From Marinifilum caeruleilacunae (GTDB lineage: Bacteria; Bacteroidota; Bacteroidia; Bacteroidales; Marinifilaceae), in NCBI RefSeq assembly GCF_013141825.1, contig NZ_RZNH01000014.1, positions 1 through 64,000 of the forward strand: a DNA stretch of 64,000 nt, written 5' to 3'. Positions within the stretch are counted from its first letter, which is position 1. The number at the start of each line of letters is the position of its first letter. The position numbers and the translations under genes were made by a program. The notes under the pieces were generated by a model that saw only the letters and a program-made list of their open reading frames with translations, did no database searches and was not told the origin of the DNA. Below, one piece after another: positions 46,559-53,949 of this stretch.

Positions 46559-46587
46559 AATTGTACGATTATTGGATGTACTTAGAT
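46559..46587. promoter_or_regulatory. Operator-like motif, weaker copy
   Basis: AATTGTA-N7-TGGAT-N5-TAGAT keeps the left arm and most of the core of the AATTGTA-N7-TGGTT-N5-TACAA motif. It lies upstream of the nitroreductase gene at 45894-46454 and overlaps the 3' end of the radical SAM gene. Confidence 0.4.
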
Positions 46588-47457
46588 AGAATGACGCAAT
46601 GGCACGCTATCCAAAACAAGATCATCTGTATCGGAAATTACATAGTCTACACGATCGATGGCCGATTGTTTGTCTTTTGGAAGCTGAGCATCAAAACTAA
46701 CAGTATTGATAATGTGGATTCCCATATAATAGGTAGGCACATCTACCAGTTCCAAAGTTTTCTTTTGTTCTTCCAAAACCTCACGTTCTGTAGCCAGTTC
46801 AAAATTGCCTTCGGCGATATCTTTTGCCAACTTCGTACCTTCGTTCGGACTTAAAGTGGTTGGAACAATTCCCAATGGTTTGACTGTATTAATCAATTTT
46901 GCATTGGCTTCTGCATTTTCAATTCCTCTTCCTTTACCAGCTGCTCCAAACATAAATCCATAAAAGAAAGTAATGCCTGCCCTATTTAAACGTTCCAATT
47001 GCTCATAGGCATCTTGTAAAGAAGCACCTTTATTCAGATAATCAAGCGCATCTTCCAATCCTGTTTCAACACCAACCCACAAATCGCCAATTCCCAATTT
47101 GGCCAAGTCAGCCAGTTCCTCATCTGTTTTGCCCATGATATTATTAATGGATGCATACATGGTAATAATCTCAACCTCGGGCAGGTATTTGTGAATCATT
47201 TCGGCTACCGCTTTTAAGCGTCTCCCCGAGAGCACAAAGGCATCACCATTCACCAAAAATACTCGTTTCACCTTCGGATATTTCTCCTGGGCTTCCTGCA
47301 AATCCTTTTCGACCTGCTCCATTTTATCGACCGAGAATTTTACATCTCGATACATGGTACAAAATGTACATTTGTTATGAGCACAACCTACGGTTACCTG
47401 AAGTAGTAAAGTATTCGCCTCGTATGGAGGTCTGTAAACTGGTCCTGTGTAATTCAT
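46582..47457 (-). CDS. Radical SAM protein with CX4CX2C cluster motif
   Basis: 291 residues. The radical SAM signature is C25-AHNK-C30-TF-C33 (CX4CX2C), one residue longer in its first gap than the standard CX3CX2C. The fold motifs NGDAFVLSGRRL and GVETGLEDALDYLNKG are typical of the Elp3/MiaB-like superfamily fold. The spacing seems to belong to this GCxHNxCxFCxMY subfamily, whose reactions are mostly uncharacterised. A -7 box TAACTTTG lies at 47499-47506 on the minus strand; a weak shared operator copy at 47547-47575 lies upstream. Confidence 0.82.
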   Translation of the reverse strand: MNYTGPVYRPPYEANTLLLQVTVGCAHNKCTFCTMYRDVKFSVDKMEQVEKDLQEAQEKYPKVKRVFLVNGDAFVLSGRRLKAVAEMIHKYLPEVEIITMYASINNIMGKTDEELADLAKLGIGDLWVGVETGLEDALDYLNKGASLQDAYEQLERLNRAGITFFYGFMFGAAGKGRGIENAEANAKLINTVKPLGIVPTTLSPNEGTKLAKDIAEGNFELATEREVLEEQKKTLELVDVPTYYMGIHIINTVSFDAQLPKDKQSAIDRVDYVISDTDDLVLDSVPLRHSI

Positions 47458-47546
47458 TTTCTTACAATTTTATTCACGCTATTCATTCATTTACAATACA
47501 AAGTTAGAAAGCTCAAGCTCAGGCTTACTGTAAGAAAATTGGATAG

Positions 47547-47575
47547 AATTGTATCTTTAATGGCTTAAAGAGCAA
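47547..47575. promoter_or_regulatory. Operator-like motif, weaker copy
   Basis: AATTGTA-N7-TGGCT-N5-AGCAA, upstream of the radical SAM gene. It keeps the left arm and core spacing, and the right arm has two mismatches. Confidence 0.4.
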
Positions 47576-47762
47576 TATAACTTTCAACTTAGCGATTTTT
47601 CACCCCAAAAATGCTTACACATCGCACTTTACAACCTAAACAACCAATAATTATACAATCTAAAATCAGAAAGGATTCCTCCCAATGCTTTTTCATTATC
47701 AACTTATGGGAACAGTATTTTGTTATGATAGAACTCGAATTATTGGTACCACAAAAGGAATA

Positions 47763-47791
47763 AATTGTACAAATATTGGTTTTTGCTACAA
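47763..47791. promoter_or_regulatory. Operator-like motif, strong copy upstream of araC
   Basis: AATTGTA (47763-47769), N7, TGGTT (47777-47781), N5, TACAA (47787-47791). It lies 82 bp before the araC ATG. The outer TTGTA and TACAA are inverted repeats. This suggests autoregulation by the AraC or its co-transcribed MarR. Confidence 0.65.
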
Positions 47792-47873
47792 ATCAGCCCC
47801 TTTAAGCTTTTGTTAACACTCTTTTCTGCCTCATATTACGTATATTGCGTTCAAACAAACCAATTTGAATACA

Positions 47874-48737
47874 ATGCATACAGAAAGAGCAAACAAATTA
47901 TTCGAAATACATATTGAAGAATTATCGACCTGGGGAAAGCGCCCGCACAAGCACAATTTTTTTGAGATCGTGTATGTAGAAAAAGGTTCTGGCTACCAAT
48001 GTATCAACAATCATGAATTTCAATATCATGAAGGGAATATTTTCCTGCTTCCTCCACTCGATTGTCATTCTTTTAAAATTGAAGAAGAGTCGCGCTTTTA
48101 TTTTATTCGCTTTACCGATCATTACTTCCTGAAGAACGATGGCCTTACCAATTACAAAGATTGGTTCGACAAGGTTGCCTATATTTTAGCCAATTACAAT
48201 AAAGTACCAGGCGATATTATTACCACAACACGCGAAAGAAATTTTATCATCGACAATATCAAATCTATCTACCAGGAGTATTTATCGGCCGATAGCTATT
48301 CCGATTCTATTATTGCAGGATCTATTGCCTCCATACTAAATGTTCTGGCCCGAAGTATCGAGAAGAGATATGTTGACCAGGCCAATGAAATCGATAATCG
48401 TTTTGGTGAGATTTTGAGGTATATCAACACCAATATTTTTGATGGTGAAAAGCTGAGAGTACCAAAACTGGCCGATAAATTTGGCATTTCAAAATCCTAT
48501 TTTTCAGAATATTTTAAGAAACAAGCCGGAATTAGTTTGGCCGATTACATTATCAAATCCAAACTGAGAATTGTGGAGACCAAAGTGCTGCACACCGACC
48601 TGTCATTAAAAGAAATTGCCTACCAGTTGAATTTTACCGATAGCAGTCACCTGTCGAGATCTTTCAAGAAAATTTATGGTATGACTGTGAAAGAGTTTAA
48701 AAACGGAGGTCATACCCAGTGTGCTCCCCAAATTTAA
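47874..48737 (+). CDS. AraC family regulator (cupin sensor, C-terminal HTH)
   Basis: About 287 residues. The N-terminal cupin-like domain ([37 protein letters not shown]) is the AraC ligand domain. The C-terminal AraC HTH pair is at about residues 190-280 ([40 protein letters not shown]). I use the ATG at 47874 rather than the TTG at 47865. A marR gene follows 6 bp later. The strong operator-like motif upstream of this gene also occurs upstream of nearby oxidoreductase genes, so it may be a local master regulator. Confidence 0.88.
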
Positions 48738-48743
48738 TTCAAG

Positions 48744-52762: not shown

Positions 52763-52875
52763 CTCTTTTTTATTTTCTGTTATACACTAATTTTAAATCG
52801 CTTACACTCTTCGAAGATTGATAATACAAATGTAGAGTATGAGAAACATAGAGGCACTGTACCAAAAGCAGCATG

Positions 52876-52904
52876 AATTGTATTTTTACTGGTTGCATAT
52901 ACAA
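52876..52904. promoter_or_regulatory. Operator-like motif, strong copy upstream of the crotonase gene
   Basis: AATTGTA (52876-52882), N7, TGGTT (52890-52894), N5, TACAA (52900-52904), identical in all conserved positions and spacing to the copy upstream of araC. Confidence 0.65.
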
Positions 52905-53049
52905 CTACCAAGTACAATACAGTCAAAATTCAACTTATTTCCTTTACAACCACCCATTTCACATCAAAAAAACCAATTTAAATACATTTTAATGATGAGT
53001 ATTTCAATTTGTCTTTACATTTTCATTGCTGATAAAAAAAGGTGGCACA

Positions 53050-53083
53050 AAAAAAAGCCTGTCAGCTCTAAAAGCTAACAGGC
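53050..53083 (-). terminator. Terminator of the second nitroreductase gene
   Basis: GCCTGTCAGCT pairs with AGCTAACAGGC with one mismatch. On the minus strand a run of eight T follows. Confidence 0.86.
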
Positions 53084-53113
53084 CATAAACAATAAAACCA
53101 AACAGTCAGGATT

Positions 53114-53785
53114 TTATCTAAGCCATTCAACAACTTCTTCCATTGGGAAACGAGATTGTGGAAATGGAGAATCCTCCTTTTTGTAACCAAATGCTACCAT
53201 AGCAGCAACTCCAAGCTTATGGGTATCAACAACACCTTCTTCAGCTAAAATTGCTTCTACTTTTGCTCGGTCAAATCCTTCAATCGGACAAGAGTCAATT
53301 CCAATTTGAGCCGCTGCAGTCATCATATTTGCGAATGGCAAATACACTTGTTTACATGCCCAATCGAAAATCTTACGATCATCGGTCAAATCAAATTCAT
53401 TCTCCATAAAATTTTTGAAGAAATCATTTTTCATCTGTTCGATATCCGCCGGCAACTTATCAACCACTTGCGATTTGTATTTTAGGTAATCCGAGCCCAC
53501 TCTCATTTCATCGCCTTTGCGAGCCAATAATATTACAAAGTGACTTGCCGAAGCCAGTTGCTTTTGTGCACCCCAACTTGGTTCCGATAATTTCTCGCGT
53601 AAATCACTATTTTGTACCACAACAAATTTCCATGGCTCCCATCCAAACGAACTTGGAGAGCGTCTTCCTACTTCAAGAATAAATTCAAAATCTTCATCTT
53701 TAATTTTTTGTTCTGGTTCGAACTCTTTAATGGCACGGCGATATGCATGTGCTTTTAAAATTTCTTCTTTTTTTGCTTGCATCAT
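53114..53785 (-). CDS. NAD(P)H-dependent nitroreductase (NfsB-like)
   Basis: A 223-residue FMN oxidoreductase of the nitroreductase family. It has HAYRRAIKEFEP, SPSSFGWEPWKFVVVQN with the SxxSxGxEPW-type motif, and EGFDRAKVEAIL near the C-terminus. NfsB-like enzymes reduce nitro compounds and quinones. A strong operator copy (53921-53949) lies about 135 bp upstream. It forms a monocistronic unit with the terminator at 53050-53083. Confidence 0.9.
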   Translation of the reverse strand: MMQAKKEEILKAHAYRRAIKEFEPEQKIKDEDFEFILEVGRRSPSSFGWEPWKFVVVQNSDLREKLSEPSWGAQKQLASASHFVILLARKGDEMRVGSDYLKYKSQVVDKLPADIEQMKNDFFKNFMENEFDLTDDRKIFDWACKQVYLPFANMMTAAAQIGIDSCPIEGFDRAKVEAILAEEGVVDTHKLGVAAMVAFGYKKEDSPFPQSRFPMEEVVEWLR

Positions 53786-53920
53786 TTTATATTTTTCAAT
53801 TATATCTTGTTTTTATTATAATCAGGCATTACTCACTTGCGTGATGTGGATACTGCTAAATCCCGACAATACAAAACTATATAATCGGTAATGTCGGATT
53901 GTTGTAATCAAATCGTATAG

Positions 53921-53949
53921 AATTGTATTCATAAAGGTTGTACATACAA
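53921..53949. promoter_or_regulatory. Operator-like motif, strong copy upstream of nitroreductase
   Basis: AATTGTA-N7-AGGTT-N5-TACAA; the arms are exact and the core has one change. Confidence 0.6.

Follow-up and report, generated by a model that had tools for sequence, protein, structure and literature searches.

We analysed a 64,000-nucleotide stretch of the Marinifilum caeruleilacunae genome (contig NZ_RZNH01000014.1, positions 1 to 64,000; hereafter the window) in which araC, a gene for an AraC-family regulator, adjoins a gene for a MarR-family regulator. The sequence points, with good confidence, to an AraC activator regulon that uses a tandem operator and carries a MarR module at some of its promoters. 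The predicted AraC operator is almost certainly a tandem direct repeat whose half-sites lie 21 base pairs (bp) apart. By sequence, the regulator combines the features of the AraC/XylS family, namely a DNA-binding domain with two helix-turn-helix (HTH) motifs, a cupin sensor/dimerisation domain of the AraC-RhaR type and the tandem 21-bp operator.

47874..48737, plus strand: AraC-family regulator with cupin domain, two HTH motifs and invariant C43 and C64 (Pfam; orthologue alignment).
48744..49169, plus strand: MarR-family regulator with an N-terminal Cys, adjoining araC (Pfam).

A sequence-only reading of the window had drawn attention to a 29-bp motif with inverted arms, TTGTA and TACAA, around a TGGTT core. 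All six copies that it listed are present on the plus strand, with no mismatches at 47763 and 52876, one at 51420 and 53921, and three at 46559 and 47547, and they are clustered far beyond chance (eight matches in the window against a mean of 0.57 and a maximum of 4 in shuffled sequence). Its statement that no further copy occurs in the window holds for strong copies and fails for weak ones, since two more three-mismatch matches lie on the minus strand at 2351 and 19537. A TTGTA-like second half-site stands exactly 21 bp 5' of the motif in all six copies: at offset -21, 27 of 30 TTGTA letters matched, compared with a mean of 8.75 (standard deviation 3.7) over all tested offsets, -21 included. 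The second-best offset, +15 (21 of 30 letters), corresponds to a MarR-type dyad. Functionally, the unit is not the 29-bp motif but, by prediction, a 36-bp AraC operator in which TTGTA-N7-TGG stands twice as a direct tandem repeat. The motif covers one half of that operator; the motif's TACAA arm belongs to the separate dyad, and the proposed inverted repeat is not the symmetry that matters for function. The earlier outline of a local AraC/MarR regulon over nitroreductases, a crotonase and a short-chain dehydrogenase/reductase (SDR) survives this change of anatomy.

A scan of a genome collection gave 77 loci related to the window AraC. The orthologue set (n=45) comprised L057-L098 (42 loci, 55-95% identity), L050, L053 and the window, with L099, L100 and the more distant L101-L133 left out, and the 350 bp upstream of araC were examined in all 45 loci. 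Half-site pairs in these regions occurred 23 times at a distance of 21 bp and at no other distance more than twice, with none in the reversed control. The 29-bp motif gave 17 matches in the orthologue loci against 7 in reversed controls, few because the AraC operator does not include the motif's right arm. A 45-bp matrix was trained on 35 of 43 promoters that passed a 12-of-16 letter rule, leaving out the window and its near relative L050; scores of the 35 training promoters are therefore circular, and those of the window and L050 are not. An araC-linked operator scored above 12 in 42 of the 45 loci, in Bacteroidota and Verrucomicrobiota. Built from the araC promoters of other species, the matrix placed the six window sites at ranks 1-6, the next score (9.3) belonging to an inverted half-site that covers the start of araC, and among the top three scores from each of 80 simulated 64-kilobase (kb) strands only three were at least 12. 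The copies previously called weaker, those of the radical S-adenosylmethionine (SAM) gene and nitroreductase 1, rank first and third.

46540..46575, plus strand: predicted AraC tandem operator of nitroreductase 1; TTGTA at 46540 and 46561; score 23.9, rank 3; no mismatches to the genome pattern.
47528..47563, plus strand: predicted AraC tandem operator of the radical SAM gene; CTGTA/TTGTA 21 bp apart; score 31.6, rank 1; no mismatches to the genome pattern.
47744..47779, plus strand: predicted AraC tandem operator of araC itself; TGGTA/TTGTA; score 30.1, rank 2; 130 bp before the araC ATG.
51401..51436, plus strand: predicted AraC tandem operator of the 153-residue gene, SDR and OpuAC genes; TTGTA at 51401 and 51422; score 13.1, rank 6.
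52857..52892, plus strand: predicted AraC tandem operator of the crotonase gene (SnoaL gene downstream, probably in the same operon); CTGTA/TTGTA; score 14.4, rank 5.
53902..53937, plus strand: predicted AraC tandem operator of nitroreductase 2; TTGTA at 53902 and 53923; score 19.2, rank 4.

Genome scans with the motif core and with the tandem pattern rejected the idea that the motif is common everywhere. The 27-bp core at no more than one mismatch occurs at five places in the 5.27-megabase genome, four of them inside the window; the tandem-operator pattern has only two perfect matches, both in the window, and six of its 17 places at up to two mismatches are window sites. The genome was scanned by pattern only, and 30 of the 102 places at up to three mismatches (six in the window) were scored with the matrix. 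Among the 11 non-window places at up to two mismatches, L168 scored 19.5, one inside a 190-codon open frame scored 12.3, and the others were at or below 9.1 or below the cut. L168, on contig 191, lies outside any long open frame and upstream of a nitroreductase whose start looks lipoprotein-like by eye. It is probably a seventh AraC operator of the regulon, before another nitroreductase on another contig, and that downstream gene is an unforced functional match to the regulon.

The Bacteroidota -7 element TAnnTTTG is described as covering -12 to -5 (PMC6847099, PMC9723704). Each of the five window targets has such a box at a distance of 21 or 22 bp from the edge of its operator:

46510..46517, minus strand: -7 box TAGCTTTG, 22 bp from the operator (nitroreductase 1).
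47499..47506, minus strand: -7 box TAACTTTG, 21 bp from the operator (radical SAM gene).
51371..51378, minus strand: -7 box TAATTTTG, 22 bp from the operator (153-residue gene).
52827..52834, minus strand: -7 box TACATTTG, 22 bp from the operator (crotonase).
53872..53879, minus strand: -7 box TAGTTTTG, 22 bp from the operator (nitroreductase 2).

The same spacing was found at 42 of 50 operators hand-chosen for having a target gene, and at 47 of 70 unselected Bacteroidota matches scoring at least 12, where only eight boxes stood at other offsets within 60 bp; the background rate of TAnnTTTG is 0.0006 per base and strand. The operator therefore spans about -70 to -35, as for an activator, and in Bacteroidota its proximal half-site abuts the -35/-33 element in the manner of AraC/XylS activator sites. 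On this geometry AraC very probably activates its targets. An operator edge at about -35 could block the -33 element and let AraC repress them; repressor sites, however, usually tolerate positional shifts, and most Bacteroidota operators hold the -7 box at a distance of 21 or 22 bp, which makes repression of the targets improbable.

The arrangement upstream of araC is likewise constrained. The operator starts 129-131 bp before the araC ATG in 28 of the 35 loci scoring above 20 and 119 bp before it in two, about one helical turn less; in seven loci of 54-57% identity (L092-L098) the distance is 112-113 bp. An inverted half-site covers the start codon itself:

47860..47874, minus strand: inverted AraC half-site CCAATTTGAATACAA, ending on the A of the araC ATG (47874); 9 of 9 consensus letters.

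This half-site, CCAAT-N5-TACAATG placed on the start-codon A, has at least seven of nine letters in 33 of the 45 orthologue loci and in none of the seven loci L092-L098. Bound there, AraC would most likely repress its own gene by occlusion or looping, and we have moderate confidence in such autorepression. A preference for A at -3 and -6 of translation starts, reported in PMC6847099, is an alternative source for part of the start-codon signal. The radical SAM-araC intergenic region also holds a lone good AraC half-site, TTGTATAATTATTGG, on the minus strand at 47644-47658, and L050 has a similar sequence near araC.

The element on the far side of some operators is a dyad, TTGTAYRTACAA, which we regard as a probable MarR site separate from the AraC operator. 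Two of the six window sites have a good copy, and a third has a doubtful one:

53938..53949, no strand assigned: MarR-type dyad TTGTACATACAA, a perfect TTGTAYRTACAA abutting the AraC half-site of nitroreductase 2.
52893..52904, no strand assigned: MarR-type dyad with one mismatch, at the crotonase site.
51437..51448, no strand assigned: degenerate, doubtful dyad with three mismatches, at the 153-residue gene site.

In a survey of 31 hand-chosen operators, the dyad stood at the fixed +15 position with 0-2 mismatches in eight (window nitroreductase 2 and crotonase, L053, L059 twice, L080 and L091 twice) and had at least three mismatches in the other 23, so the two halves behave as separate modules. 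Three TTGTAYRTACAA copies flank a MarR paralogue (52% identity) in the window's own genome, and paralogue loci in four other genomes have two or three dyads each, one of them about 50 bp from the marR start; overall, dyads flank marR in five of seven MarR homologue loci. The putative recognition helix, placed by eye, reads ASTMTRF[IV]DKL both in the window MarR and in the homologues with dyads, and SSTLTRxFDKL in the two homologues without them. These observations bear on two simpler schemes. One makes the 29-bp motif, with its inverted arms, the single operator of one protein; four strong copies in the window favour it, yet the right arm is missing at the sites that the matrix ranks first and third, and this modularity and the dyads standing alone beside MarR paralogues make it very unlikely. 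The other makes MarR the sole regulator and the TTGTA repeats its half-sites, in keeping with the position of marR next to araC and with the TTGTAYRTACAA dyads of the MarR paralogues; against it, the tandem repeats are kept beside araC where no marR was found, Verrucomicrobiota included, and the operator-to-araC distance is fixed, and we give it marginally less credence still.

The window MarR matches PF01047 and PF12802 above cut-off, with no HxlR family among its matches at E 0.001, and identity with the DUF24 (HxlR) proteins YodB and QsrR was rejected on these grounds. The named groups OhrR, SlyA and BilQ were rejected as well, the NCBIfam scores of 22.0, 22.7 and 29.4 bits lying below the respective cut-offs of 200, 120 and 125. 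In Labilibaculum filiforme (L058) the marR next to araC looks degraded, with broken frames at 10867-11200, and no MarR dyad was found in the 20-kb locus. Elsewhere in the window's own genome a MarR-type dyad lies upstream of a gene named by eye as tautomerase-like (L260, contig 1, about 126403).

Together with araC, the predicted regulon comprises the following genes, the radical SAM gene among them:

45894..46454, minus strand: nitroreductase 1, candidate target (PF00881).
46582..47457, minus strand: radical SAM protein, candidate target (PF04055).
49199..50005, minus strand: OpuAC-type solute-binding protein, candidate target, downstream gene (PF04069).
50046..50843, minus strand: SDR oxidoreductase, candidate target, downstream gene (PF00106).
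50866..51327, minus strand: 153-residue protein, candidate target (no Pfam or NCBIfam match).
51453..51854, minus strand: SnoaL-like protein, downstream of crotonase (PF12680).
51917..52762, minus strand: crotonase-family protein, candidate target (PF00378).
53114..53785, minus strand: nitroreductase 2, candidate target (PF00881).

The 153-residue protein accompanies the cluster in L050, L058 and L091 (54-66% identity), and the OpuAC-type protein, which adjoins the oxidoreductases, does so in several relatives. No extra operator was found in the 300 bp upstream (one orientation) of radical SAM orthologues in other genomes; in most araC-bearing genomes another gene lies directly upstream of them.

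Both AraC cysteines, C43 and C64, are invariant in 45 of 45 orthologues. Among more distant relatives, 26 of 29 rows aligned sensibly (L039, L041 and L042 were left out), and only L101 has Cys at both positions. The invariant pair and the redox-enzyme targets suggest thiol-based electrophile sensing by AraC, to which we assign an even chance. A less probable but serious alternative is that a sugar, an aromatic acid or another small ligand binds in the cupin pocket as the signal and that the cysteines are structural: judged by structure titles, the closest solved sensor domains are those of RhaR and the lactose sensor BgaR. Against this, redox enzymes make up most of the targets, among which there is a single OpuAC-type gene and no gene for sugar use, and the invariance of both cysteines among orthologues also tells against a cupin ligand.

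Nitroreductase 2 allows the same gene to be compared inside and outside the cluster. Thirteen orthologues outside it (85-89% identity, related genomes), from nine genomes without this AraC and four with it, have no operator in the 300 bp upstream searched in one orientation (best score 4.9). Marinifilum breve has its orthologue (94%) beside araC in the 20-kb locus L091, with an operator scoring 18.2. The operator therefore goes with cluster membership. For the earlier proposal that sister species with the same genes should keep the motif, the outcome is mixed: the operator is missing from same-genus species that have this nitroreductase, yet so is this AraC, and the four araC-bearing genomes also keep a nitroreductase copy elsewhere that has no operator. 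The same-genus orthologues L234-L236 and L238 have a divergent small reading frame upstream, HxlR-like by eye, in place of an AraC operator. Five further genomes of the same genus yielded no match to AraC itself at 1e-40, and Verrucomicrobiota carry AraC orthologues (68-77% identity) with operators in L063, L068, L073, L075, L083 and L090, a distribution that suggests horizontal spread.

Several results weigh against the regulon as drawn. Three of the 45 orthologue loci (L070, L078, L087) have no araC-linked operator above 9.1, the seventh site L168 has no TAnnTTTG box at 21-22 bp, and six Verrucomicrobiota operator matches also lack it, as would be expected if Verrucomicrobiota promoters differ from those of Bacteroidota. 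Genome-wide, at up to three mismatches, the tandem pattern shows no excess over its reversed control, with 102 places for the pattern and 103 for the control. When 57 family genomes were scanned with the pattern at no more than one mismatch, the matrix gave 24.7-30.5 at one conserved coding sequence in L194, L196, L204 and L218 (a coding sequence that L203 shares with L204), and 25.3 at L197 and 14.0 at L195, both within long open frames. A score of 17.0 came from L207:1500-1536, an operator-like sequence that lies in no long open frame, belongs to a same-genus genome without this AraC and is not accounted for by the regulon. A high matrix score alone therefore proves no site. The MarR module has exceptions too: L053 and L091 carry dyads, although no MarR was matched in the L053 genome at 1e-20 and no close marR was found in the 20-kb L091 locus checked.

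From the operator anatomy, its conservation, the promoter geometry and the cysteine conservation, all visible in the sequences, we infer a scheme of binding, activation, repression and signal. AraC (47874-48737) would bind, probably as a dimer, to the tandem repeat before five target transcription units and araC. With the proximal half-site ending at about -35, next to the -33 element, it would most likely activate through contact with RNA polymerase, in the class II manner used by AraC from araI1-araI2. At the crotonase and nitroreductase 2 promoters a MarR repressor, most likely the neighbouring one, would probably occupy the TTGTAYRTACAA dyad abutting the promoter-distal AraC half-site and add a second input. 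The signal would most likely be a thiol-reactive oxidant or electrophile (a quinone, an aldehyde or a nitro-aromatic compound), with Cys43 and Cys64 of AraC and the N-terminal Cys of MarR as its sensors.

The AraC protein of E. coli has a 21-bp tandem spacing, and its araI2 overlaps -35. The likeness extends to araBAD, where, as described in PMC4760080, two proximal half-sites are used, the nearer recruiting RNA polymerase, and a distal half-site loops. In contrast to that system, the targets here are redox enzymes with no arabinose logic, the place of araO2 is taken by an extra half-site about 95 bp away that overlaps the start codon of araC, and the sensor domain is only 13-14% identical. 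The E. coli HOCl sensor RclR is an AraC-family activator of redox genes with two sensor cysteines, Cys21/Cys89 (PMC7464077), whereas by residue numbering the cysteines here stand at 43 and 64, and the target genes differ. YqhC is also of the AraC family. In the E. coli aldehyde response it regulates an aldehyde reductase (PMC8262776); here the target genes are others and fill several transcription units. YodB/QsrR/CatR and MhqR of Bacillus and Staphylococcus control nitroreductase and quinone reductase regulons, some through N-terminal Cys sensing (PMC6798810), but they are repressors, whereas the principal regulator here resembles an AraC activator, and the window MarR matches PF01047 with no HxlR/DUF24 match. 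A literature search joining the AraC family with nitroreductase, quinone, electrophile, cysteine and Bacteroidota themes found no description of the regulon within the searched library and terms; it is ordinary in kind, an AraC activator system, and undescribed in the papers searched.

More speculatively, and we think this rather unlikely, the locus may represent a thiol switch that takes two inputs and differs from the known quinone regulons, in which a Cys-pair AraC activator and a Cys-bearing MarR repressor read a fixed 48-bp cassette of two AraC half-sites and an abutting MarR dyad; its AraC part, with a phased start-codon half-site for loop autoregulation, would have spread, as an island for defence against electrophiles, in both Bacteroidota and Verrucomicrobiota.

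To our knowledge, few cis-regulatory sites have been mapped in these phyla, and a previously uncharacterised regulator here gains a base-resolved predicted operator, a list of targets and a signal that can be tested. The same nitroreductase under different promoters inside and outside the cluster offers a clean natural case of regulatory capture, and the composite AraC-MarR cassette makes the integration of two possible redox sensors directly testable.

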